DNA of 64,000 nucleotides from Saksenaea vasiformis B4078 (taxonomy: Eukaryota > Mucoromycota > Mucoromycetes > Mucorales > Saksenaeaceae): positions 1 to 64,000 of the forward strand of contig JNDT01001580.1 of NCBI GenBank assembly GCA_000697055.1. Reading direction: 5' to 3'. A program made the translations under genes and the position numbers. A model generated the notes under the pieces. It was not told where the DNA came from. It saw nothing but the letters and a program-made list of their open reading frames with translations, and searched no databases. Positions 32,915 to 51,420 of this stretch are shown in pieces. The stretch's first letter is position 1; each line of letters begins with the position of its first letter.

Positions 32915-35900
32915 TTACATATTGGGACGTTCATACATAGCCCCCATTTCGATTTGGGCGTAGGGATGATTCTTGTCCGCAGCTTTTTTTAACCACTCAA
33001 GTGCTTTCGCACTATCTTTTACTACACCTTTGCCATCCTTGTACATCATTCCAAGATGATATTGTCCATCAACATCATTCTGCGTAGCTGCTTTTGTAAA
33101 CCACTTGACTGCATTCGCATGGTCTTGAGCAACACCCTGACCGTTCAAATACATCATCCCGATTAGATTTTGTGCACGGGGATCATTTTGATTTGCCGCT
33201 TCCTTAAACCATTCGAGCGCCTTCTCGCAGTCTTTCTCGACACCATTTCCGTCTCTGTACATAGCTCCAACAGTAGACTGTGCAACGCTGTAGCCTTGTT
33301 TCGCAGCCTTTTCGAACCACTTGAACGACTCACTATAGTTTTTATCAACGCCTTCTCCATTCAAATACATAAAGCCAAGCTGTGTTTGGGCAAAGGCATG
33401 ATCTCGTTCCGCTACTTTCCGAAACCATTCGGCTGCTTTCTGAGGATCTTTCCCAGTGCCTTTTCCATCTTTGTACATAAGTCCAAGACTAAACTGTGCG
33501 TTGATGTGCCCTCTCTCGGCTGCTTTAGAGAATAAGTGAAATGCTTCTTCGTAGTCTGTCTCAACACCTTGTCCATTCATATACATAAAACCAAGCTGAG
33601 TCTGGGCACCAACATGATTATTCTGTTCTGCTTTTGTGAACCATTCCACCGCTTCTCTGTAGTCTTGCTCGACACCACTTCCATCTCTGTACATTATTCC
33701 AAGGTTGTACTGCGCAAACTCGTTGTTTTTCTTCTCCGCCGCTATTTTGAACCACTTGGATGCCTCCTTACAGTCTTTGGAAACCCCTTGTCCTTTCAAA
33801 TACATAAAACCGACTTCGTTTTGCGCATCAGGATAGCTTTGAGTTGCAGCTTTAAAGAACCATTCGAACGCGTCTTTATCCTTCCCTTCTTCCCTACACA
33901 TTACGCCAAGGTTGTACTGTCCGAAGGGATTATTCTGCTCAGCTGATCTTTGATACCATCCAAAAGCTTCCTGCTGATTTTGATCGACGCCTTCTCCGTG
34001 CAGGTACATATAGCCAACATCGTTCTGCGCATCGGAATGATTATTGCTTGCTGCTTTCAAAAGCCATTGAAAAGCTTCAATGTGATCCTTTTCAACACCT
34101 TTGCCGTTGTTGTACATCATTCCCAGATTGTACTGCGCGTTAGGATTGTCCTGTTCGGCCGCTTTTCTAAACCACTCTACTGCTTCTGCGTCGCTGCGGC
34201 CTTTATGCATCAAACCAAGCTGATTCTGAGCGTCAGGATGGCTTTTCTCTGCTGCTCTCGAAAGCCATTTGCCTGCTTCGTCCGGGTCTTTGGCAACGCC
34301 TTTTCCATCCCTGTACATGATCGCGAGGTTATATTGCCCATTGGCATTACCGTTTGCAGCTGCCTTTTTAAACCATTCGACTGCTTTCATATCATCGCGA
34401 GTAACGCCTTGTCCATTTGAGCACATTATTCCAACTTGATTCTGTGCATTGGTATCATCTTGAGCTGCTGCTTTCAAAAACCACTCATACGCCCTCCTGT
34501 GGTCTTGATCGAGACCTTTTCCGTCCTTGTACATGACACCAAGCGTAAACTGCGCAATACTGTTGTTTTGATTCGCTGCCTTTATGAACCAGTCAAATGC
34601 TTTTCTGTAATCCACGTTAACCCCGCAACCGTTGAGATACATAAAACCGACTTGGTTTTGCGCATTGGCACGCCCTTGGTCCGCCGCCTTTTCGAACCAT
34701 TTGAGTGCATCCATATGGTCTTGCTCCACACCTTTTCCGTCTCTGTACATCAATCCGAGGTTGTACTGTCCGTTGGCATTGTTCTGATCAGCTGCTTTTC
34801 TAAACCATGCGAGAGCTTGGTTGTCGTCTTGATCAACGCTTTCCCCGTTCTTGTACATGTATCCAACTTGATTTTGCGCCTCGGGATGATCTTGTTCGGC
34901 TGCTTTGGAGAAGAGTTCAAACGCTTCAGCGTAATTCTGTTCAATTCCTTTTCCATCTCTGTACATTATGCCAAGATTGTATTGGCCGTCAGCACTGCCT
35001 AAACGGGCAGCTCTTTTATACTGCTCTACTGCTTTTTCTTCATCCTGATCCTGCAAATGCACGAGTCCAACCAGGTTTAGCGCATCAGGGTGATTTTGCT
35101 CCGCTGCTTTCGAAATATATTCCTTTGCCTTGACACTATCATGTTCAGTTCCTTTCCCATCTCTATACATTATTCCAAGGTAGTACTGTCCGTTGGCATT
35201 GCCTTGCTGAGCTGCTTTTTCGAACCATTCGAAGGCCTTTGCGTCGTTTTGATCCGTTCCATGTCCATACAAAAGCATTACTCCAACTTGATTTTGTGCA
35301 TTGTCATCATTCTGATTTGCAGCTTTCAAAAACCAGCCATATGCTTTACCATAGTCCTGATCGGTTCCTTTTCCATCTCTGTACATTATTCCAAGGTTGT
35401 ATTGCCCTTTAGCGTTCCCCTCCTTGGCGGATTTTCGGTACCATTCAAATGCTTTGTTATTGTCATGACTGATACCTTCCCCGTTCGAGTACATAAATCC
35501 GATGGCGTTTTGCGCCTCAGAATGACTCTGAGTCGCCGCTTTGTCAAACCATTCAAATGCCTTTTCGTAGTTTTTCTCGACGCCGTCCCCGTCTTTGTAC
35601 ATAAATCCAAGGCTGCACTGTGCGATCGCATTGCCTCCCTTGGCTGCTTCTTCAAAACACCTGAATGCCTTCTCGTAATTTTTGTCGGTTCCATAACCAT
35701 CCAAGTACATGAACCCAACTTGAGTCAGAGCGTCTAATCTGCCTTGATCCGCTGCTTTCTGAAACCATCCAAGTGCCTTTGTATGGTCTTGAATGACGCC
35801 TTTTCCATCTTTATACATAATTCCGAGAGTGAACTGGCCGGTGTTGTTTTGCTGGTCAGCTGCTTTTGTAAGCCATTCAAATGCTTCTTGGTAATTTTGA

Positions 35901-38900
35901 TCGATGCCCTGTCCCTCAAAGTACATAAGTCCAAGTTGAACTTGAGCTTCAGGATGTCCTTGTTTTGCCGCTTTGGAAAGCCACTGATATGCTTCTTCAT
36001 GGTCTTGACCAACTTCTTTTCCATCTTTGCACATTATCCCATCTTTGTACATCATTCCAAGACTGTACTGAGCGTACATATCTTTTTTTTCGGCTGCCTT
36101 TCTGAACCACTCAGCTGCTTTCTCTCTGTTTTCAGCTGCACCTTCTCTTTGCAGGTACATCAACCCAACTTGGTTCTGTGCATTGGCATCATTTTGTCTT
36201 GCTGCTTTCAAGAACCATTCAAATGCCTTCGTAAGGTCTCGAATGACACCGTTTCCATCTTTGTACATTACACCAAGACTGTACTGCCCAATGCTATTAC
36301 TCTGGTCAGCTGATTTCTTGAACCATTCGAATGCTTTTGTGGGATTTTGCTCAACGCCATCTCCGTACAAGTACATAAACCCCACTTGGTTTTGAGCATT
36401 GACTCGATTTTGCTCTGCCGCTTTCTCAAACCAATGGAACGCTTGCTTTGGATCTTTGTCCACACCTTTTCCATCCCTGTACATTACTCCTAGGTTGTAC
36501 TGTCCGTTGGGGTTGTTTTGCTCAGCGGCTTTTATAAACCATTTGACTGCTTCCTTGTCATCTGCACCTCTATGGATAAGACCAACTTGGTTCTGTGCCT
36601 CTGGATAGTCTTTCTTTGCTGCTTCTGAGAAGTGATGACTGGCTTTAGCTTGGTCTCGTTGGACTCCTTTTCCATCTCTGTATAATATTCCAAGATTGTA
36701 ATGTCCATCGGGTATGCCTTGTTCGGCAGCTCTTTTGTACCACTGATACGCCGCTATGTAGTCTGGACCGTTCTCTTGCAGATTAGAGCGTAGACCCTGT
36801 GCCTGGGTTTGCGACTCCGTCTCATTCACCGCGCTTTTTAACCATTCCGATGCCCTTGAGTAATCGCGATTCTCGTCTCTCTCGTCTCTGTACATTGTTC
36901 CAGGACTACATTGTCCACTGAAGTTATTTTGCTCGGTGTTACTTTCCAAATATTCACTTCCTTTCTCAACATCTTCGAGAAGACCGCTCCCAGTGCTATA
37001 CATCATTGTAATATCATTTCGTGCGTCAACATGACCTTGTTTCGCTGCTTTCAAAAGCCATTCAAGCGCTTCTTTGTGATCTTGCTTCACTCCATGGCCA
37101 TCTTCGTCACCTTGCTTTGCGCCATAGCCATACCTGTACATAGTACCCATATTGTATTGCGCATAGACATTGTTGTTTTTAGCTGCCTTTTTGAACCATT
37201 CAAATGCCTTCTCGTAGTCGTGATTGACTCCCTTTCCGACAAAGTGCATCCATCCGACGTGGTTTTGGGCGTCAGCATGCTTTTGTTCCGCTGCTTTCAG
37301 AAACAATTCATACGCTTGCTTATTGTCTTGAGTGACGCCTTTTCCATCTTTATACATCATTGCAAGATTGTATTGTCCATCAGGACTTTCTTGATCGGCT
37401 GCTTTTTTGTACCACTCAAATGCTTTTTCATAGTCAGGGCACTTGCAATACATGGATCCGATCCTGATCTGCGCATCAGGATGATTTTGATATGCTGCTG
37501 CCATAAACCACTTGAGTGCTTCCGCATCGTTTTCGTCTACACCTTGTCCATCTCTATATGCAATTCCGAGTTCATATTGCGCGCTGCTGTCTCTCTGATC
37601 AGCAGCTTTTGTAAACCATTCGAGTGCTTTAGAATAGTCTTGCTCGGTTCCAGTGCCACTTCTGTACATCACCCCAACCTGGTATTGCGCAATAGGATTG
37701 CCATTCTTGGCCGATTTTTCGAAATATGCGAACGCCTGTCCATCACTTTTCAGCATTCCAGTACCGAGGTAATATATGTATCCGATTCTGCATTGTGCTA
37801 CGGCATCATTCTGTTCTGCTGCTAGTTTAAGCCAACGGAGTGCCGTTCTTTGGTCTGGCTCTGTTCCCTCTCCATGTAGAAACATGATTCCGACATTTAG
37901 CTGTGCATCAGGATCACCCTGCTCTGCAGCCCTAAGGAACCACGTGAAAGCCTCGCTGTCATTTTTCTCAACACCTCTGCCGTGGCTGTACATGTGTCCA
38001 AGGTTATACCATGCTTGGACATTATTCTGTTCTGCGGCTTTTTTAAACCATTCAAATGCCTTATAATGGTCCAAAGCGACACCGAGTCCTTGACTGTACA
38101 TGCAGGCGACTCTATTGCATGCGTCACCATTATTTTGCTCAGCAGCTTTCCCAATCCATTCAAAGGCTTTGGATATGCTTTTATCTATGCCGTGCCCCTC
38201 TGCGTATGCAAGCCCGAGATTATACTGCGCGCCAGCATGTCCTTCAAGTGCGGCCTTCTGGAACCATTTGACTGCTTCAGGTTCGTCCTTCTTTACTCCT
38301 CTGCCATCTTTGTACATCATTCCAAGGCTATACTGCGCATCTCGATGCCCCTGATCAGCTGCTCGTTTGAACCATTGGACTGCTCCAGTGTAATCCTGAT
38401 CTATGTCTTTACTATCCTGATAAACTGCTGCGAGAGCATATTGACTGTTGGCATGGTCTCGACTTGCTGCCTTTGCAAGCCATTTTACTGCCTCGGTTTT
38501 GTCGCCGTCGACACCTGTTCCATCTCGGTACGCAACGCCGATGTTGTACTGAGATTCAACGTCATTTTGGCCAAGAGCGCTTGAGATCCATTCGCACACT
38601 TGTATAAACTTGCTGGAGGCCCCATATCCGTTGGCGTACAAAATCCATAGTTTATGCTGTGTCATGTAACCTTCAGGAATACCCGTTATATAGGGTGAAT
38701 CCGTGGCCTTCTTGGTATTATGGCTGATACGCTGTGTGTAGTCACGGTGAAGATTTTTGGTATGCCTGAACTGGACATCATCCTTAAATCTCGCCTCCAC
38801 AGCAGATTTTAAACGGTCAGGCAATAGATAATACGTGGGAACAAATTCTGTTAACTGGATGATCATCGGATTCTTTTCGATCGAGCGCTTCCATTGTGCA

Positions 38901-41643
38901 ATGTCATATTGATCGCCGAATGGTGTAGTATTGTCGAAACATTTGCTTATAAGCAGCGTATCACCTCCTATAAATGGGACATGTGAGTCATCACGTAAGT
39001 ACGGGAATTATATAGCCGTACCTATAATGTTGTACCGCTGCCCTGAACGACTGGCATTTTGGAAGGTAACATCTCCACGCTCACTATCGTCACACTCTAT
39101 TGCGATTCTCCCACCTTCAATGCGTACGGTGATTAGATATTCCCTTAAAGTCTAGTGCATTTACCAAGCAAAATCTTCGTGGGATAAAAAAACCCAAACT
39201 CTCGGAAAACATGTTCCATTTTTTCCGACTTTAACTCTGAAGAAGAATTCAGTGCGCGTTGGACTTCATTTATGAAATCTTCGCTTGCTTGCACATTATC
39301 ACCAAGGCACAGCTAATATGGACAATATTTAGCACAAACACCAGTAGTATGCTGTACCAACCTCAGAAACCGGCACATATGTTATCCAGTAGCCAGTCTT
39401 CCTTTCCGAGCCCCGTGCATGTTCTTCGGATACTTCGCCATCTAGCTGCTGAGGGAGCAAATGTTTCTGAAATTCAGTTTCCAGAATTGCATTGAGACCC
39501 TGATTCAAATTATCGTTGCCCGTTTTTCTAACATATTTTTTGTACGCTTTATCATTCAGCCGAAGATATTTTGAAATAAATGATTTTTCACTGTCGGATG
39601 AGTTTCTTGCTCCTCTCCCACCCTCAGAGTCATGCATTTCGATTGGGGTTGCGTTTGTTAATTGTCCATCGTACTGTACTCCCCTGTTCCAGTGGTGAAG
39701 CAGAACGTCAGATATTTCAAAAGAAGGACAAATATTTTGAAATCCACGAGACATAATGCTCCAGGAAGTATCATGCCTGTTGCAATGCTTGTCTGAGATT
39801 GCGGCGACGACGGATATACAGGCCTTTGATAACGAAGGATTCGTAGCATCTTGCAAAGCTACTGACATGTCGTATAGGCGTCGTTGTGGTAGTGTGCAAA
39901 GATACATATACACACTGTCTCCTGTGTCGTATGCAAATTCGCTTTGCAATGCTATATTGTCTCCCACTTGGACATAGTCACTGTCACCGCTTTCAGGTTC
40001 CTGGTCAACTGACTGGGTATCGCCACCCTGAACAGAGTGTCGAATCACTTTCCTTATTTTTTTATAAGTCTCGTACATCATATATATGGTTAACCTGTCT
40101 CACCATTTCTGATGTAATGTGGGTGATAGCTCGGCCACGCTGACTATGAGGTAATCTTCTTTGTGCGCGGATACGCTTGTACTGCTCGGAATCTCTGCCG
40201 AGCGCTCAGACGAAGGTAGCGAAATAAACTTTTTGACTGGCGTTCCCGTTACACATTCAAGCTCAGGAGATAGCAACTGTACATAAACCACGTCACCGTA
40301 TTTTACACGACCGTAATTATGGTTTTCGTGAACTTCCACAAGATTAAAAGCAACTGGATGGACTCTATCTTCATATGGATCCTTTGGAGTTGTTCCGGGA
40401 TCAATTAGACATAACATATTCCCTGAAACAAGGAGGACGTTATGTCAAACTAAATCAATAGGTACTTGTATAGGCTTACCAGTTTCTTGGTTTTCGTTGT
40501 CAATCTTCCTCCTGTATTGGAACTCGCACATGTATGGATTGGAATGATTAGCGTTTTGGTCATTCACCGCAAACTCAATAGGATGATTGTAAAATACGGA
40601 ATTGTCATCTTCGAGATTTTTGTCATAGATCTCTTTTACTTGTTGGCGCTGTTGTTCGTCCAAGATGTCGTATATTGGTTTCATAGCCTGGAATTGGATG
40701 ACCTCCAAGTTTGAAGGGATGCTGTCTTTCCAATTTTGACTACTGTTGTTTAATAGCTCTTGGGGATCTCCACCTAATGGATCTTCATAAGCGTATCTCT
40801 GAAATCCCGTTGGTTTTTACGTTACCTATAACGGCGCGGTACTTATTATTCCCATCTACCTCAAGAAAGATATTTGCGGCAACGTCACTGGAGAAGCCTA
40901 ATTTTTCATGGCGTTCCCTCTTTGTAAGGCAGTTTTCCCTTTCATACACAATCCTGCCTCCTACAGAATAACTGTCACGGCTTTATTTTTTCAAAGGTTT
41001 CACATACCTAATAAGACTTTTGACGGGTAGTAGTAACCGAATCGGCTGAAGACGTTCTCCAAAGCGCGATATTTCTGTTTATTGGTATCTCCACTCAAAG
41101 CTTCCTCGACTGATCGCTTGAAAGCATCGTTGCCCACAAGAGGGCCCGAAGATAGGCGCACCTAGGCAGACAGGTCAATAATGAGCTGTGCACTTTACTG
41201 TATCTATTCTCACTTCTGCGCAGCAAATATAAGCGACATTATATGTTGCTCTTTCACTCGTTCGTTGAATATTGCAAGCAGCTTCTGCACAGGCGTCATA
41301 TGTAAATATCTCGGAAGAAACGCTATGGAATTTGCAATCGAGAGACACTTCGTTGACCATGTTATCCTTTCTGACAGTCCTTGCGCAAACATGCTCAGGG
41401 AACGGTATGTTGCCCTGGTGCCGATAAATCAAGTTTGTAAAGTTTTCAATTGAACTGAAACGCAATGCAGGTTCTTTGGCAGCAGATCCATCAAAATGAA
41501 AGCCATGTTCACATCGCTTGATTATCTCATTAATCAAGCTAGATGAAGGAGTATTCGGCTTGAAAAACAATGTTAAATAATGTGGGTAATGGAACATGAG
41601 TTCCTACCTCTAAGCCTAAAACTTTTGAATCCTGAAAGGTCAT
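32915..41643 (-). CDS. Giant MACPF-like / Sel1-repeat protein A
   Basis: About ten exons on the minus strand, ending in one huge exon (to 32915) that alone codes about 2000 residues; the whole is roughly 2800. The N-terminal part has two segments with a perforin-like signature: FGYYYPSKVLLGG (about 41020-41055) and FGFFYPTKILLGG (about 39160-39200, split by an intron). Both fit Y/F-G-x-x-Y-x6-GG, the MACPF pattern, though the Thr-His pair is lost. Each is followed by a GGD segment and a W-x-x-S-[IL]...PIYD[IL]L-like helix seen in fungal MACPF-like proteins. Between them lie two strand-rich modules with KYGDVVYVQLL and VQVGDNIALQ. The C-terminal array holds about 52 Sel1 repeats, an alpha-solenoid scaffold for protein contacts. 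No signal peptide is seen. The start is ATG 41643 (MTFQDSKVLGLE), matched by the paralog. A pore-forming role is only a possibility. Confidence 0.75.
32918..38560 (-). repeat. Array of about 52 Sel1 repeats (108-bp units), gene A
   Basis: Counting by eye gives 52 full or near-full 36-residue units of the form AQYNLGxMYRDGKGV...AFEWFKKAAEQN, plus a cut final unit ending YERPNM. Units 15-17 (coding roughly 36750-37020) are degenerate. From about unit 18 onward, units with GQYNLGIMYRDGKG alternate with units with AQNQVGFMYLNGQG, giving a 72-residue (216-bp) higher-order period. A few units are short (about 31-32 residues, for example 11, 19, 33, 41, 44) and two are long through internal duplications (14 and 24). 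Confidence 0.85.
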
Positions 41644-41684
41644 TGAAGAACAAGAAAAAGATGTGATTATTTCCCACGTCTTTT

Positions 41685-41734
41685 GTACCTTGACCTCGGC
41701 ATTAGCTCCGCTGTAATCTCATTAAAGTTATGCC
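41685..41734 (-). promoter_or_regulatory. Conserved leader block of gene A
   Basis: About 50 bp upstream of the gene A ATG resembles 50870-50920, which is in the same position before gene B. Shared stretches include GCCGAGGT followed by a GTAC donor-like site on the minus strand. No reading frame is stop-free and continues into the gene in both copies, so it is more likely a 5' leader or promoter element than an exon. Confidence 0.45.
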
Positions 41735-42175
41735 ATATTGTGGCACAAAGTATTCAAAACACTAAGCCGAAAGGCGGTTAGTACATTTTTGACTGATATT
41801 TTGCAGATAGAACTAAGTGAAGAAGTACATTATGCAATATCAGCGTCGGTAGCAGCATGCACTTGTGTGTGAAAAGCTAAAGTTCTATGGTAGACGCGTG
41901 GAACGCAAATGGATGGAACGGAGATAATAAGGTTTACACGGTACAACTGTCGGAAGGTCACTCCAAAAACGAGATATATAAGTCAAACGTTCCTCAAACA
42001 GAGTCCTTGTGAGCAAATACAAGGAACGAGCGTGCGTTTCCAAAGAGCTGATAGATAAGAGAGCCTGACTGGCAAGATCAGCTAGCTCTGATGCGCAAAG
42101 GGACGGGCGGCATCGGAAGACTACGAGTTGAAGCACTATGGTTCTCCTGGGTGGTGATGCTTTTCTAAAGAATAT

Positions 42176-42685
42176 CAAATACTTTTGCAGGAAAGATGCA
42201 GACACAGCAATTCCCCGTTACTTTCGATAGCTTTGTAATAACATGTGCTATTATATACGTACAGGGTTAAAATATCCAAGGAATCGTCAGAAAACGTACT
42301 TGAAATAGTGTAGTACGAAGCTCCATTTAACCAAGGGATTCTGGGTGTCTCTATAGCGTATCCAAGCATATGCTTGATGCCATCCAACAACAGCGCAGCG
42401 TATCTAATATTTTCGCTTTCCAGTTCTGTTGTAAATCCATGGACGAAACCTGCTTTTGACGACTGTACCATCTGCTTCAACAATCACGGTCGAATTGAAC
42501 GCATGCCAATGACCTTTTAGCCTCAGGCCCTCTTTGTCGACGCTGAAGTCATTTTGGCTGGCGGCTATCCTCCCTATGCTATAGGAGGTGCAATCGAGTG
42601 GGTACCTTGATGAAGGTTCGCTGTTACAAATCAGTATCATTGTCATAAAAGGAGCTCTGCTCGTCAGAAAACACTTGGCTACCAA
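42176..42685 (-). pseudogene. Possible eroded gene or unrecognised two-exon gene
   Basis: Two overlapping minus-strand frames (42685-42404 and 42483-42175) both look protein-like: the first contains LRLKGHWHAFNSTVIVEAD, the second IETPRIPWLNGASYYTISS. They can be bridged by a GT-AG intron, but no version gives a convincing complete protein, and I recognise no family. It may be a remnant or a real small gene; the evidence is weak. Confidence 0.25.
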
Positions 42686-43616
42686 AAGTTAAGCACACAG
42701 ATTCCCCATGTCATGTATCACGACTGCTCTTTATGGTAGGTTAATTTTGCGGGAAAATCGGAATAAGAGCGTGCCTACGTACAGTGCAAACAATAAAGTT
42801 GCAAACCTGATTAATACAAGCTCTTCCTTTTTATCGACTTCAGTGCCGTATACCTTGTGTTAATAGGTCTTTATTCATCTCTTTTTCTTTTATTTATTTT
42901 TCTATTTATTTCTGACAATTCTCACATTCGTAGTCATGCCGTAATTGTTGGCGTTAGTATTTTTGTTGACGTCTCGGACAAAATCATTATACAGCCTTCC
43001 TGTAAACAATATTTACTATCAAAGCCTTCATATCTCACGGATGTCCTCATTCTGGTTTGCTATTAATACGGTCGTTATTTCTAAACGACAGTCGCTTTAC
43101 TTTTTGTAAACAGAGGGGCGGAGCATCCCAAATGAACGTCCAAAGGAACAGTAGGTTACCTGTGTTATGGCATGGAATTGACTAATTCACATCTCCTTGC
43201 AAGATGGCTTCTTCTTAGATAGTTATCTCCATCTAAATTTTCTCTGTGCAAAAATCGCCTTTCCAATTCAATTATAGAAAGAGTATTTTAATGCCTGTCC
43301 TCAAAAGTAAGAAGAGGGTACAGTGACAACACCATTACAAAGAGTATATCTTCTATAGCCATGGGACCATCCTTCTTTTTTTTTTGTATATAAGCGATGT
43401 TTGTGACGACGATTGCTTGGCTGCGCAACTTATCTTGTTAAGTACGAAGATTGTTGCTTTTTGATTGTGTTTGTTCTTGTTCTTTTTTGTTTTTTGTTTT
43501 TTGTTCTTGCGCTTCTTTTTTCCCTTCGTGGCCTTCTTCATCATAGTGTGCTCCTTGTTTTTTGCATCATTCATGTACCTCTTTTTGCTTTTGTTCTTGA
43601 TGGGCTTTTTCTTTCT

Positions 43617-43757
43617 TGTAGATATGGATTTGCCTGTATATATTGGTTGTTCTCGCGGATGGATTGCTCTTGTAGACATGGATTGTTATTGTAGATATGG
43701 ATTGTTCTTGTAGATATGGATTGTTCTCGTAGATATGGATTGTTCTTGTAATTAACT
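43617..43757. repeat. 21-bp minisatellite
   Basis: Five to seven imperfect copies of a unit close to TTCTTGTAGATATGGATTG, with variants (GACATGG, CTCGTAG). The last four copies are nearly identical, which suggests recent expansion. Confidence 0.8.
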
Positions 43758-43886
43758 TCTTGAATTTGAGTTTCTTCTTGATATTTTGATTCTTGCTTTC
43801 TTATCCTTTGTTTCTGATATGTTCTCGGTATTGACGGCGTTGTTGTTCTTTTCCTTTTTTTTTTTTTGTTATTGGATCTCTTTTCC

Positions 43887-44300
43887 CTAAATTGATGCTC
43901 TTGGTTTTTGCTTATTCCTGACTGTGGGTTGTTCAAGATATTGTTGCACTGATGTGGCATATTTTTTTTTGTATGCGATTTGTTTTTGTGTCTGTACTTC
44001 GTTGAATTGGTCGTTTCTGTATTTCTTTGATTTCATTGGTTTTGTGCTTCTTTGAGTTCGCCGTTTCTTGGAGTTCTTGAATTTCTCGTTGATATTCTCG
44101 TTGGTATCTTCGTTCGCATGTTCATTGGTATTTTCAGAGGTATCCTTGCCCGTGTTCTCATCGTTTGTATTCATATCGCTTCTTGGGCAAGAATAATGGT
44201 TTTTGCTGCGGCGTCTGGGACATCTGGCAGAAGAGATGCCTTCTACCAAAGGTGAACCGGAGGTGTTGATCGGATAGTCAATGCCAAGAAGGCCACGCAT
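43887..44300 (-). CDS. Hypothetical low-complexity Asn/Thr/Lys-rich protein
   Basis: An ATG-initiated frame of 137 residues. The first 45 residues have ordinary composition with Cys and Arg (RCPRRRSKNHYSCPRSD). The rest is Asn/Thr/Glu repeats (NTNEHANEDTNENINEK) and then Lys/Arg-rich. No family is recognised. It could be a small real gene or a stop-free low-complexity tract; the neighbouring minisatellite argues for caution. Confidence 0.3.
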   Translation of the reverse strand: MRGLLGIDYPINTSGSPLVEGISSARCPRRRSKNHYSCPRSDMNTNDENTGKDTSENTNEHANEDTNENINEKFKNSKKRRTQRSTKPMKSKKYRNDQFNEVQTQKQIAYKKKYATSVQQYLEQPTVRNKQKPRASI

Positions 44301-44681
44301 TGAAAGAGCACGTTGGAAAATAATAGAGATGGCGAAGACCGTAGTTCAATACAATTCGAGCCGACGATAAGTTTTGTCGTTTTCACGTTTCCCCAAATTT
44401 TCGTAGCAGCATATAAATGTATACATCGGGTTGTCTTTTTCCCAGGCATCACATCACAGCTCCAAAGAAAGAAGGTATACTCGCCTCTTCACAGCCAAAA
44501 ATAGTATCAATATGGCTTCCTTGGCCGTGGAAGCTTTACCTGCTTCACGGTTAAAAAGGCTACCAGAGATCCCTCTCTGACTGGAGGATACCTGTGTAAG
44601 ATAAGAAATAAGAAAAAAAAATACCATAGCCTTGATCTTCATCTAGCTGGTCGACAACATAGAAGAAATTCTACTAGAGAT

Positions 44682-47600
44682 TTATTTTTTAGAGTATATC
44701 ACTTTAAGTTGGTTTTGCGCAGCTAGATTGTTTTGATCTGCTGCCTTTTTTAACCATTCGACAGCCTTCACGCTATCTCTGCGCACACCCTTCCCAGCTT
44801 TATACATGAATCCAAGCTTGTATTGCGCTTTCGCATGCTCTTGATTCGCTGCTTTCTTGTACCACTCGATTGCTTTCCCGTAATTTTTGTCTACGCCTTG
44901 CCCATTTTCGTACATAAGCGCAATTTGGTATCGCGCTTCCGTATGATTCTGATCTGCTAATCTTTTCAACCGTCTGAATGCTTCCGCGTAGCTCTGATCT
45001 ACGCCTTTTCCAGATTTATACATGATTGCAAGATTAAATTGCCCAGTGGCATCATTTAGATCGGCTGATTTCTTGAACGATTCGGCAGCCTCTCTGTCGT
45101 TTTTATCTACTCCTTGTCCCTTGCTATACATAACCCCAAGTTGGTTTTGTGCCTTTGCATGGTTTTGGCTAGCTGCTTTCAGAAACCATTCGAATGATTG
45201 CGTGTAGTCCTCGCCTACACCTTTTCCATCTCTGTACATGATTCCAAGCTTGTATTGGCTGCTCGCATGATTCTGATTAGCTGCTTTTTCATACCATTCA
45301 GCGGCTTTCCGATAATCCCTCTCTACGCCTTGACCGTCGTCATACATGGTTGCGATTTGATTTTGCGCATCTGCGTGATTTCCAATCGCTGCTGTCAAAA
45401 AACACTGAAATGCTTTCTTGTAGTCTTCCTCCGCATGCTTCCCTTCTATGTATGAAACCCCAAGCATATACTGCGTGTTAGTATCCGTTTGGTCGGTTCC
45501 TTTTCGAGATTGCTCGACTGTTATTGCGTGATCTTTCTGTGGTTCATGAAAATCATCACGCGTAAACCCCGCTATGATTTGTTTGCCCTCAGCGCCATTG
45601 TCCACTTGTTTCAGTTGCCAGTCAAATACGTCCATGTCGTTTCTATCGGCGTTGGCACTATCGGTGCATGGAGCGCCAATGCTGTGCTGTCTGTAAGCGT
45701 GGATCTGAGTGCTCGCTTTTTGACGCCATTCTGCTGCTTGTGTATGATCTTGACGCACGCCTTCACCTATTTCATACATTGTAGCGACTTGTGTTTGTGC
45801 GTCTGCACAATTTTGGTTTGCTGCCTCCAGGAACCATTCAAATGCCTTTTTGTGGTCTTGGTGTATGCCTCTTCCGCCTCGGTACATAATTCCAAGGTTG
45901 AATTGTCCGATAGCGCTACCTTGTTCGGCCGCTTTTCTATACCATTTTACTGCTTCCTTGAAGTCCTGATCTACTCCATCTCCGTTTTCGTACATCAGCC
46001 CAATTTCGTTTTGTGCACTTGCATAGCCTTGATCTGCAGCCTTTTTGCACCAGTAGAATGCCTTTTCATGAGATTTTTCTACACCGCACCCATCCACATA
46101 GCAGATCCCAAGATTATACTGTGCTTTGGCATGATTTTGTTTCGCCGCTCTTTTATACCACTTGACTGCTCTCACAGTACCTTGACGAACTCCCTCACCA
46201 TTTTCATACATCAAACCGACTTCGTTCTGCGCACTCGCAAAATTTTGATAGGCCGCCTTTTTCAACCAAGCAAATGCTTTTGCATAGTCTTGGTCTATAC
46301 CTTTTCCATCTCTGTACATGATTCCAAGATTATATTGCCCATGTACATGAGCCTGATCTGCTGCTTTTCTAAACCATTCGGTCGCCTTCACATAATCTTG
46401 ATCAACGCCTTGTCCGTGTTTGTACATGAATCCAAGCTCATTCTGCGCGTCTGCATCATTTTGATGCGCTGCTTTCAAGAACCATTCGAATGACTTTGCA
46501 TAATTTCTCTGTACTCCATTTCCCTTTCTGTACATCAATCCCATGTTGTACTGCGCATCGACATTGCCCTGTTCGGACGCTTTCCTATACCATTCGATAG
46601 CCGTAGCGCAATCTTTATCCATACTATGCCGACTTTCGTAGATAGTTTCAACTTCCCTTCGTGCGTCTTCATCATCATGATTTGCTGCTTTCATAAACCA
46701 TTCGAATGCTCTTACAAGGTCTTTTTCTACTCCTTTTCCTTCCTTGTACGCGATTCCGAGCTGGTACTGCGATTTTGAGTCGTCTTGGTTTGCAGCCTTC
46801 TCAAACCATGTAAACGATTTAAAGTAGTCCTGAGCGGTTCCTGTTCCATCACGGTACATGATACCCATGTTATATTGTGCATCACTATAATTCTGTTTCG
46901 CGGATTTATTAAACCAGCTGAACGCTTGTTCAAGGTCTCGGTCAACGTATATGTTATGACTGTACATGCAACCAAGATTGTATTGAGCTCTGGCGTCACC
47001 CCGGTTGGCAGATCTTTGAAACCATCTGAATGCATCGAATTCTGATTTTTCTACACCTTGGCCGTCCATATACATAATTGCGATATTGTATTGAGCATCT
47101 GGGTCAGGATCACCGTGGTCGACAGCTTTTTGGAACCATTCAAATGCTTTGATGTCGTCCTGCACTACGCCTGTGCCATTGCTATACATGAGTCCAAGAT
47201 TATACTGCGCTTTGGCGTTGTTCTGGGATGCAGCCTTGGTGAACCATTCAAACGCCTTTGCATAGTCTTGATCAACACCTTCACCATGACTGTACATGCA
47301 TGCGAGACTATTACACGCATGGCTATGATCCTTCTCAGCAGCTGCCTTGAACCATTTTACCGCTTCCCGGTAATCTGATTCCACACCGTCGCCTTCCGCA
47401 TACGTTACTCCGAGACAATATTGTGCATCAGCATGTCTCTTTTCGGCAGCTTGTTTAAGCCATTTAAGAGCTTCGTGCTCATCCTGATCCATTCCTTTGC
47501 CTTCCTTGTAAATCAACGCAAGATGATACTGCGCGTCTGAGTGCTGTTTTGCAGCAGCTTTCTTAAACCATTTAACCGCTTCATTGTAATCTTGCTTTAT

Positions 47601-50600
47601 GCCTACACCATCTTTGCACATCATGCCAAGAGCATACTGCCCGTCAGAATGACCTTGTTCCGCAGCTTTTCGGCACCACTTGATTGATTCAATGTCACTG
47701 CGTTTCACGCATCTTCCATCTCGGTAAGCGATGGCGATATTGTACTGTGCATCGGCATTATTTTGACGAAGGGCATACGAAAACCATTCGCACAGCTGTA
47801 TAAAATCTTTGGATGCACCGTAGCCTTTCCCATACATCAGCCATACCTTATGCTGTGTCACAAAGTCATTGGAGAAATTTATCATAGCGCAATCGTCGAG
47901 TGATTGTTGAACGTCATGAGTAATACGATGCATAGAATCAACGTTGTTGTGGCTAGAAAATCGATACTGTAGTTCTTCATTAACGATGTCCTCGACGGTG
48001 CATCTTAGATGTTCTGGTAAAAGGTGATACGTAGGAACAAGCTCCTTAAGTTGAACAATTACTGGATTCGCTGGAAGGGATTCCATCCATTGTATGGTAT
48101 TATCGGTAAATGATGTGCACCTATCGTAAGGTTTGTACAAGAGCATTGGATCACCACCTACAGATAGCCAGTTACTGCATATAGACACAACAAATGCGTC
48201 GCTGTACCTGTTGCTTTGTAATGACGTCCTACGCGAATGACATCTAAAAGGTTGTTCTCTGCTGATTCAGTATCATAGTCAATGATGATCCTACCGCCTA
48301 TGAGGTGACAATATTTAGAATTTGACGAGGTTAGATAGACCTACCTAGTAATAGCTTCGAAGGATAAAAGTACCCAAATATTTGAAAGACTTGTTCAAGT
48401 CTTTTTGCCTTTTGCTGTGAAGAAAGACAAGCTAGCGCAGCCTCGATTTCTTTTACAAAATTTTCGGTTGCTTGGACGCTATCGTGGAGACACAGCTGAC
48501 ACAGATGTTTGATTACTGAACCCGTCACTGCATGCAGAAACCAACCTCGTAGCACGACGCATGTACAAGCAAATGGTGTGAACAGCCCTTCTTGGTGTGA
48601 AAATGTGGTTGACTGTTTTCATCTTCCAGTTGGTAGGGGACCAGTTGCGGTCGAAACGAAGCATCAATTACTGTGCTTGTAGGCCAGTTCAGGTAGCCCT
48701 TACTTATATTTTCGATATTCTCTTTGTATATCGTTACCTTCGTTTGGAGTTTCTTGGAAAGAAACGTCGTCTCACGATGGAACTTGTCGCCTGACAGCTG
48801 TTTGCATTCAGGATCAAGTAATTCAACTGGAGCCACACTGGCCAGTCGTCCATCACTTGTTATGCCTCTGTTCCAGTGGTAAATTAATGCGTTAGATACT
48901 TCTAGTGGTGAAAGCGGGCTGGATTGAGTTTCATGGAATCTGATACGCCATTTAGAACCAGAAATATTGTCATCATGAGCAGGGCTTGCCGCAATAACGG
49001 ACGTTCGCGCCTGCGACAACAAAGGGTTTGTGGTTTCTCTTGTGATAATTGCCAAAGATCGCGGCGAAGCTGTGCATAAATATACCGGTATGTGATTTCC
49101 CGAAGCATCCACAATTTCGCAGTGTAATACTATACTGTCTCCTATTTGGACATAGCCATTACCGTGTTCTACGCGGCCAAAAGACGTTTTGTTTTTCGCA
49201 TGCTGCGTGATCTTCCTGATGGAATCTTTGGTTAATTCCGAGCTGGATGGGTATACACTGTACCATTTTTGAATCAACATTGATGATAGTTCACTCGTGG
49301 TAACTGAGACATACTCAACCGTGTTCGTTGATGAGGACGGATACAACGATAAAAACCGGACGATTGGTGTTTCTTCCACAAATTCAAATTCTGTATATAA
49401 TAACTGTACGTAAACTGTATCGCCGTATTTCACACGTTCGTAACTATAATCTCCGTGCTCCTTCACAAAACGGAAAGCAATCGGATATACTCTATCTTCG
49501 TACATGTCTTTTGTAATCGTTTCACCGTCGACCAAGCATAATATGTTTCCTGCAATACAGGATGAAAATGCCACCATACATACACAGGTTATAGGTAATA
49601 TCCTCACCTGTCTGTTCGTCTGTTTGGCTGTTTTTGCTATGGCCAATCGTTGTATACTGGAATTCGCACATGCTAGAGTTACATCGATTGTTTCCCTGGC
49701 TATTAGATACAAATTCAACCGGATAATTGTAGAAAATACAGTTGTCATCCAAGAGCTTTCTTGTGTAGACCTCCGTTACTTGCGATCGCTGCTGTTCATT
49801 CAAGACATTGTAAATTGGTTTGATTCCTTGGAATTGAATTATCTTCATATTGGACAACAGGCTTTCCTTCCAGCTTTGAATTCCGCTTGCAAACAGCGTT
49901 TTGGGGTCACCACCTACCATAACCCCGGAGCAGTTTACTTTTCAGCCTACCTATCAGCCTATCCCAAACTTTTTATGTACCTATAACTTCATAGTACCTA
50001 TTGTACTGACTAGCAATGATCATGTTCTCTGCTGCAGCATCGCTTGAGAGGCCCACGTTTTTGTGTTGAACCTTTCCGGTTATGTGCTCTTCTTCTTCGT
50101 AGACGAGTCTACCTCCTACCGAAAACCGTCGTTTGATTTTTATCTCCATAAGAGTTATACATACCCAGTAAAATTTTTGAAGGATAGTAGTAACCAAATT
50201 GCCCAAACGCATTCTGTAATGCATAGTACTTCTCCTCATTGGTACTCGCCGACAGAGCTTCCAGAACCGACCTTGTGAAGCCAGTGTTCCCTGATAGAAG
50301 CCCCGAGGAAATTCGTACCTAATTACGCCACGTTACCGATATATCCACATTATACACATTCTGTACCTCTGCGCAACAAACATAAGCGATGGCACACGGG
50401 ATTCCTCCTGTGATCTGTGATTGGATGGACCTGCATGAGCCACAATTGCTTTCCGCACTAGCATCGTACGCAAATGTCTTCGGAAAGACATTGTGGAATT
50501 TGCAATCCATCAATAACGCATTGGGTATAGCGTCCTTGTTTATCGTTCGTGTACACATATGTTCGGGCAATGACTTGTCGAAAGAATATCGGTGAATCAA

Positions 50601-50815
50601 ATCAGAGAGATCATCACCATAATTGAAGTTCAGCGCAGGTTCTTTGGCAACACTGCCATCGAAATGGACACCGTATGCACACCGTTTGATAATGTCGTTC
50701 TCTATGCCAGATGGGGAAGCGCTTGCCTTAAAAAACACCGTTGTAAATTTTGTAAGTGAAAATGGACAGAGGCTACCTCCAAATAGAGTATACTCCAGTC
50801 CTTTTCAAGCGTCAT
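44682..50815 (-). CDS. Giant MACPF-like / Sel1-repeat protein B
   Basis: Paralog of gene A with the same exon plan, roughly 1900-2000 residues. First exon MTLEKDWSILYLE (50815), then an exon beginning ASASPSGIENDIIKRC that matches gene A (shared HFDGS-x-AKEPAL). Two perforin-like signatures: FGYYYPSKILLGG (about 50170-50210) and FGYFYPSKLLLGG (about 48350-48385, split by an intron). The region between holds a 400-codon frame (49748-48525) with KYGDTVYVQLLY and VQIGDSIVLHCE, strand-rich modules also found in gene A. The second MACPF-like half is followed by VGGDPMLLYKPY and a helix with VPTYHLLPEHLR, then by about 28 Sel1 repeats to the stop at 44682. No signal peptide is seen. It lies head-to-tail 3 kb upstream of gene A, so tandem duplication is the simplest origin. 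Confidence 0.75.
44685..47756 (-). repeat. Array of about 28 Sel1 repeats (108-bp units), gene B
   Basis: Counting by eye gives 28 units of 36 residues and a partial last unit ending VIYSKK. Units 20 and 21 (about 45490-45710) keep the 36-residue length but have lost almost all consensus positions. Units 5 and 7-8 carry small changes such as a two-residue insertion. The first units match the first units of gene A in order (for example unit 4 has AYAEG and unit 5 has CNxxACMYS in both), which shows the array start was duplicated as a block. Confidence 0.85.
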
Positions 50816-50869
50816 AGGTGGAAATTAAAAGGGAGGAAAAGAAGCTCATATTATATGTTGGATTGTACG

Positions 50870-50920
50870 GTACTTGAACCTCGGCGTTGTCTCCGTTTGT
50901 AATTCAATAAGGTTTGCGCC
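50870..50920 (-). promoter_or_regulatory. Conserved leader block of gene B
   Basis: Counterpart of the block at 41685-41734, about 55 bp before the gene B ATG, with roughly three quarters of bases matching by eye. It ends in a GTAC donor-like site on the minus strand, so a 5'-UTR intron is possible. Confidence 0.45.
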
Positions 50921-51420
50921 ATGTACAAGATGCGTTTCATCCATACCGCGAAGTATTAGATAGCACTCAAGGACTATTTTGAAAAAGAAAGAGCAGCTTC
51001 TGTTAATAGGAAAAAGTCGTCCGTGATGACTCCTCCAACAAGAGAGCATCGTGTATCTTACTTACGCTGAATACCATCGACCATCAAGAAGCGCGTAGAA
51101 AATTAAAGTTTCCCTAAGCAAACCAAACGTTGTTACACGCAGGATGGATTGCATTTAGTGGACTTCCATGTAGTCAGGAAATATGTACATCGGTTCATGG
51201 AGCAGAACATCTGCTATTCAAATTCGAGTTTTTATATTGAAGGAGGGATATACCGGTTTCATAATTAAATGACGAAATCAGCATGGTGAAGTATTCAGCA
51301 AACGTTCGTGTAACATACGACCCAACTTTCGCAGGAAGCATTAATAGACAGTCTCGGCAACTTGCGAACCGTTTGCTTTCTCTTTTTCTTTCGGCATAAT
51401 AACATCTAATATTGCAGCTG
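50921..51420. other. Divergent promoter region between gene B and BUD6
   Basis: About 500 bp separating the two starts. No gene or clear TATA element was recognised; short frames only. Confidence 0.4.

Follow-up and report, generated by a model that had tools for sequence, protein, structure and literature searches.

A stretch of 64,000 nucleotides from the genome of Saksenaea vasiformis B4078 (contig JNDT01001580.1, positions 1 to 64,000, forward strand), hereafter called the window, was found to contain two neighbouring minus-strand genes, g1 and g2, of an unusual layout. Each gene is predicted to encode a head made of two MACPF domains of the pleurotolysin B type with a GD-rich region between them, followed in the same chain by a long arm of Sel1 repeats. 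Most known MACPF proteins are single-copy and serve as weapons or immune effectors. Here the domain is doubled in one chain, the arm reaches up to about 50 units, and about 50 apparently old genes of this kind lie in one fungus. The superfamily itself is known, but its tandem combination with Sel1 is new as an architecture and was not found in the open papers that were searched.

Gene structure of g1 and g2

For the gene models, conserved reading frames served as a guide to the GT-AG sites at which exons were joined. Both genes gave stop-free models; the 8 GT-AG introns of g1 measure 47-57 bases and the introns of g2 47-107 bases. This bears out an earlier sequence-only reading of the window, which had proposed two adjacent minus-strand genes of common layout. 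The features of g1 are:

32915..41597, minus strand: gene g1, MACPF-GD region-MACPF-Sel1, 9 exons, 2756 amino acids, start codon uncertain
41597-41214, 41161-41008, 40960-40826, 40773-40480, 40422-40104, minus strand: g1 exons 1-5
40052-39362, 39312-39165, 39114-39022, 38967-32915, minus strand: g1 exons 6-9
40480..41597, minus strand: g1 MACPF copy 1, exons 1-4, matching Pfam PF01823/PF22693 and, by family profile, pleurotolysin B; signature FGYYYPSKVLLGG
39735..40422, lower limit approximate, minus strand: g1 GD-rich region, made up of exon 40422-40104 plus the beginning of 40052-39362
38770..39735, limits approximate, minus strand: g1 MACPF copy 2, from the end of exon 6 through exons 7-8 into the start of exon 9
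32915..38551, minus strand: g1 Sel1 array, about 50 units (Pfam Sel1, 49 stretches, 1481 bits; 55 by our own profile)

The features of g2 are:

44682..50944, minus strand: gene g2, layout as in g1, 10 exons, 1912 amino acids
50944-50880, 50772-50367, 50318-50165, 50115-49981, 49913-49608, minus strand: g2 exons 1-5
49549-49264, 49215-48546, 48495-48345, 48297-48208, 48157-44682, minus strand: g2 exons 6-10
49216..49263, minus strand: g2 intron of 48 bases, GT-AG, phase 2, obtained from splice-aware alignment; in frame in a 9-exon model
49608..50772, minus strand: g2 MACPF copy 1, exons 2-5, matching Pfam MACPF; signature FGYYYPSKILLGG
48917..49549, lower limit approximate, minus strand: g2 GD-rich region, made up of exon 49549-49264 plus the beginning of 49215-48546
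47963..48917, limits approximate, minus strand: g2 MACPF copy 2, end of exon 7, exons 8-9 and start of exon 10
44682..47753, minus strand: g2 Sel1 array, about 27 units (Pfam Sel1, 26 stretches; 27 by our own profile)

The locus of g2 was as first proposed, but its upper limit was not: the ATG at 50815 falls in a g2 intron, and the first exon is 50944-50880. The head of one gene was also compared with the raw DNA of the other using a custom splice-aware aligner. Alignment to the g2 head recovered seven of the eight g1 introns and read through one, and alignment to the g1 head recovered eight of the nine g2 introns, missing the first. An earlier g2 model, in which 49263-49216 was kept, had 9 exons and 1928 amino acids (16 extra residues). 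Removal of this intron introduced no stop and brought QKW next to KI, in agreement with the family alignment. The Pfam scan, the full-g2 protein search, the splice-aware alignment and the family head comparison were made with the 1928-residue form of g2, and the conclusions were unchanged. The heads of g1 and g2 were identical at 354 of 866 positions (41%).

In both genes, the exon that carries the Sel1 repeats also holds, in one open frame, the end of MACPF copy 2, so that head and arm appear to belong to one gene in each case. The alternative of separate genes for head and arm was rejected on the basis of sequence, and the proposed joining of a Sel1 arm to the head was upheld, with the array in frame with the end of copy 2.

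Two MACPF domains in each head

Pfam MACPF (PF01823) matched the whole head of g1 with 66.3 bits (E 5.6e-18) and that of g2 with 39.8 bits (E 7e-10), against a cut-off of 21.5. MACPF_1 (PF22693), a fungal MACPF-like domain, also matched both heads above its curated cut-offs (E 5.5e-10 for g1 and 2.6e-8 for g2). Together with the profile match to pleurotolysin B, these results support the assignment of both heads to the MACPF superfamily. A MACPF-like head had been suspected from the letters alone, and the sequence matches supported this; the single domain assumed for each gene was replaced by two copies, which flank the GD-rich region.

The copies were also analyzed separately. Copy 1 of g2 scanned alone gave 26.2 bits against Pfam MACPF, and copy 2 of g2, with signature FGYFYPSKLLLGG, gave 24.3 bits, above the cut-off. 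Residues 6-65 of the g1 Sel1 frame, which belong to g1 copy 2, gave 17.2 bits, alone below the cut-off. Excised-copy scans and copy profiles used 9 (copy 1) and 8 (copy 2) of the 22 members in hand, and at E up to 1 every excised copy matched Pfam MACPF (9/9 and 8/8). The copy 1 profile found pleurotolysin B (PDB 9do6, 4v2t, 4oej) with E 7.9e-12; the match was collinear, covered profile positions 67-277 and ran across both the signature and the GGD...W motif. The best solved structure for the copy 2 profile was again pleurotolysin B (E 1.4e-7). The two profiles gave 12 and 15 matches, 8 of each being pleurotolysin B; the weaker ones were an unnamed protein, an insecticidal protein, a MACPF-domain protein and complement components.

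The FGxxYPxKxLLGG motif, reported earlier for both genes, occurs twice in each of them. A loose MACPF signature with correct spacing was present in copy 1 of 22/22 genes and in copy 2 of 18/22. The TH pair of the signature is mostly YY or YF in this family, so the canonical aromatic-G-(TH)-aromatic-x6-GG form was unmatched; pleurotolysin B is also not TH at this place. An AlphaFold2 model of the g2 stretch 49547-48546 with three further rows was meaningless (predicted local distance difference test, 34.6; predicted template modelling score, 0.22), and its first row held the 16 retained-intron residues.

Pleurotolysin B has one MACPF domain, no Sel1 repeats, and a partner from the aegerolysin family. 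In g1 and g2, by contrast, the MACPF domain occurs twice and has a shorter hairpin segment, a long arm is attached, and the GD-rich region has neither recognised relatives nor a Pfam family that covers it.

Internal duplication

Comparison of the two copies by hhalign gave an alignment of 242 columns with a probability of 99.95% (E 2.8e-38), whereas ten column-shuffled versions of copy 2 gave at most 0.9%. Neither copy aligned to the intervening GD-rich region (hhalign, 0.28% and 0.09%). Intron places were matched in both copies: before the same strand (phase 0), within LLG|G (phase 1), and in the next G|GD (phase 1). The intron phase run 0,1,1,1 was found at copy 1 in 17 of the 20 members that were fetched from the genome, and the run 0,1,1 at copy 2 in 15 of them; in the members that departed from these runs, a model intron was absent, surplus or wrongly placed. 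Since the copies are homologous and have common intron places and phases, the data indicate that they arose by internal duplication.

One locus, L001 (contig C58, reverse strand), has a single MACPF domain, an acidic linker and Sel1 repeats in a single open frame; its introns have phases 0,1,1. It is plausible that this short form gives a picture of the layout before duplication. Fragments of another copy were seen directly upstream of L001.

GD-rich region

The region between the copies was aligned in 16 and 19 genes, in two exon alignments. YGD was invariant, and VYLC, NP and W positions were conserved. Pfam gave no recurrent family, each match being to one member only (best 7.5e-4, DUF1644), and searches of PDB with the exon alignments gave no convincing relative (two chains with E 0.18 and 0.8 from one alignment and none from the other). 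A beta-trefoil, which had been suspected by eye, was dropped in the absence of a convincing PDB or Pfam match.

Sel1 arms

The sequence-only reading had counted 52 and 28 Sel1 repeats; the arrays stood, but the exact counts differed from those of Pfam and of our own profile, which include weak units in the latter case. For comparison of single units, 459 Sel1 units of the 36-residue type were taken from 21 of the 22 genes, with L040 omitted (short first open frame). The data showed a two-unit alternation, with an identity of 0.494 at lag 2 compared with 0.454 at lag 1 and 0.445 at lag 3; between genes it was 0.416. The arm of L028 showed no such alternation. The nearest unit lay in the same gene for 115 of the 459 units, in comparison with 5.7% expected, so some within-gene copying of units took place. 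Tandem Repeats Finder detected no 108-base DNA-level array in the arms of g1 and g2, and recent growth of these arms by DNA-level repeats was not supported.

Sel1 units abound throughout the genome; in a genome-wide Sel1 search, 150 of 3284 first-look candidates were scored. Several Sel1 arrays (for example on contigs C202 and C569) sit where no head was found. Since many Sel1 matches lie on contigs without a detected head, Sel1 arms probably serve other proteins in this genome as well.

A family of about 50 places

The genome that was searched comprises 38.7 Mb in 666 contigs. With the g1 head, 54 of 574 first-look candidates were scored and 113 matches obtained; manual grouping of these gave 40 places. 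A search with single exons of other members gave 50 matches for the end of copy 2, of which 2 were set aside as Sel1-only and 39 of the other 48 lay in an open frame of at least 400 amino acids, and a search with exon 6 gave 47 matches. The family thus occupies about 50 places in the genome; these are places and not proven intact genes, and some matches are short fragments. We fetched 20 of the 40 places, taking long open frames first, and their completeness is not an unbiased rate. The head was nearly full length in 20/20 and stop-free in 19/20 of them; the last part of the model of L044, with many introns, is unreliable. Sel1 units were found downstream of the head on the same strand in 20/20, ranging from 9 to 48 units, with the arrays of L040 and L044 cut by the end of the fetched stretch.

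Identity among the heads of 22 genes had a median of 35% (26-63%), which indicates that the family is old. A third member, L039, lies on the same contig as g1 and g2 (C281) at 74291-77975 on the plus strand, about 23 kb past g2 and outside the window. The sole relative found outside this genome was P0003, a protein of 235 amino acids on a read-assembly contig of 1272 bases. It was found with exon alignment A1 (E 1.3e-67) and was 50% identical to the matching g1 exon, and the GD-rich region of g2 aligned with both g1 and P0003. Protein database searches gave none of 6935 candidates for full g2 (region 1-880) and none of 117 for the g2 Sel1 frame (region 30-185), absences that say little.

Among fungi, genomes with large numbers of Sel1 repeats are also seen in the Sel1 expansions of Glomeromycotina. 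A passage of PMC9453076 gives 1066 Sel1 motifs for Paraglomus occultum, and Sel1 in early-diverging fungi is described in a passage of PMC8778642 as having 'no clear function'. The words MACPF and perforin are absent from the main texts of these two papers. With the present family, a part of one such Sel1 expansion gains a concrete partner domain, MACPF. The open full-text papers that were searched yielded no protein joining MACPF or perforin with Sel1 in fungi, and no match for MACPF with early-diverging fungi or for MACPF with NLR and heterokaryon incompatibility; annotators at genome portals may know the layout.

Selection, possible membrane insertion and proposed function

Average selection on head and arm was estimated for each of five pairs of members, in four of which the synonymous rate (dS) was near or past saturation, so that the closest pair alone is informative. 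For this pair, the nonsynonymous rate (dN) was 0.238 and dS 1.031 in the head (dN/dS about 0.23), and dN was 0.179 and dS 1.496 in the arm (dN/dS about 0.12). These ratios indicate that the closest pair is under purifying selection in both head and arm.

We favour, with belief and doubt in roughly equal parts, a reading in which the two pleurotolysin-B-type MACPF domains, the GD-rich region and the Sel1 solenoid form a probably cytosolic protein with an oligomerising membrane-surface head and a partner-holding arm. The MACPF pair would most likely provide oligomerisation and contact with a membrane surface. The Sel1 arm would most likely bind a partner protein or complex, which would position or license the head. 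Membrane insertion may still be open to copy 1, while copy 2 has probably lost it and would have a structural role. The approximately 50 copies, with arms of varied length, would then form a permanent repertoire in which each version of one device is matched to its own partner. No transmembrane-grade 19-residue hydropathy window was found in 22/22 heads (highest value 1.57), which suggests a cytosolic location, although the N-termini are uncertain. If the heads do act on membranes, this would point to a system for cell death or the control of organelles, in a genome where NACHT and HET matches are few.

Several observations weigh against this reading. In MACPF pore formation, two helical clusters become membrane hairpins, and the region of the second hairpin was taken as the segment that runs from the signature GG to the following GGD. 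This segment was charge-rich and had 47 residues in copy 1 (median; 33-65) and 30.5 in copy 2 (21-46), in comparison with 64 residues in pleurotolysin B by profile alignment. In chain 4v3a, the copy 2 profile alignment gave about 20 residues, presumably a portion without the hairpin. The shortened segment suggests that copy 2 probably cannot insert into a membrane and that copy 1 could do so only with a short hairpin. It weakens a membrane-inserting role, and pore formation by the heads is putative. Moreover, the N-terminal exons are uncertain and may hold a secretion signal, and among the four more distant pairs there were two in which the arm was more diverged than the head. With its second-hairpin segment shortened, the membrane-acting or lipid-binding head suggested earlier is putative, and the earlier idea of recognition of self or neighbours found no direct support, the average selection on the closest pair's arm being purifying.

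The short and charged hairpin segment, above all in copy 2, would also agree with a plain non-lytic scaffold, in which the MACPF copies are a structural fold only and the protein is a Sel1 adaptor, for example in secretion, signalling or the cell wall, with no insertion. Sel1 solenoids are known scaffolds, and purifying selection on the closest pair fits this view as well. However, the loose MACPF signature of copy 1 was kept in all 22 genes, beyond the need of a mere spacer, and its GG-to-GGD segment still has the length given above; we consider the scaffold somewhat unlikely. The proteins might instead be used to attack other organisms, leaving the cell without a signal peptide and possibly with an aegerolysin as partner. 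This would suit the fact that the nearest solved relative is pleurotolysin B, and the genome does hold an aegerolysin match (contig C85:15448-15831). However, this match is the only one for about 50 members, and it showed no sign of pairing with the family. We know of no secreted MACPF partner with any likeness to a Sel1 arm of 1000-1900 residues, and the heads lack a transmembrane-grade segment, with the same uncertainty about their true N-termini, so that this explanation appears very improbable.

A regulated cell-death or non-self repertoire was also considered, in which the arm senses a partner or an intruder and the MACPF head forms pores that kill the cell or a compartment. Such a system would work like the NLR and gasdermin systems of other fungi, which likewise have an effector head, a repeat arm and many copies; the likeness is one of working only, and, unlike fungal NLRs, g1 and g2 have no nucleotide-binding domain among their Pfam matches, which included neither NACHT nor NB-ARC. 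The number of members and the range of counted arms (9-48 units) favour this explanation, and so does the genome itself, with one weak NACHT match and four HET matches (NB-ARC was not searched). Three of the four HET matches lie on contig C441 (242342-242578, 244409-244879 and 295994-296287, the first two of which may be one gene), alongside four family places (at about 166k, 263k, 328k and 337k). According to passages of PMC10197012, HET-S and gasdermins are established pore-forming executioners in fungal allorecognition. However, the arm of the closest pair is under purifying selection, and the hairpin segment is shortened. The two arms of g1 and g2 have no DNA-level array and neighbouring units are about 45% identical, which argues against fast repeat turnover. 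The words MACPF and perforin are absent from the main texts of PMC10197012, PMC9815663 and PMC12881547, which treat fungal NLRs, immunity and cell death. On these grounds we regard a cell-death repertoire as unlikely. Its most far-reaching form, in which about 50 intracellular tandem-MACPF executioners are each checked or triggered by their own Sel1 receptor arm and make up an immune or non-self repertoire of a fungus whose NACHT and HET genes are few, seems to us quite improbable. If it were true, MACPF pores would extend from their best-known use, attack on other cells, to a cell-autonomous fungal death system. An immune use may exist, but no positive evidence for it emerged.

Neighbourhood of g1 and g2

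The other genes identified in the window were ordinary and included Syf1, an AMP-binding reductase, AIP3/Bud6 and Rax2. The last two, along with the fungal MACPF match, mark the DNA as fungal. The gap of about 3 kb between g2 and g1 (window positions 41700-44680) contains a 19-base tandem array at 43613-43750.

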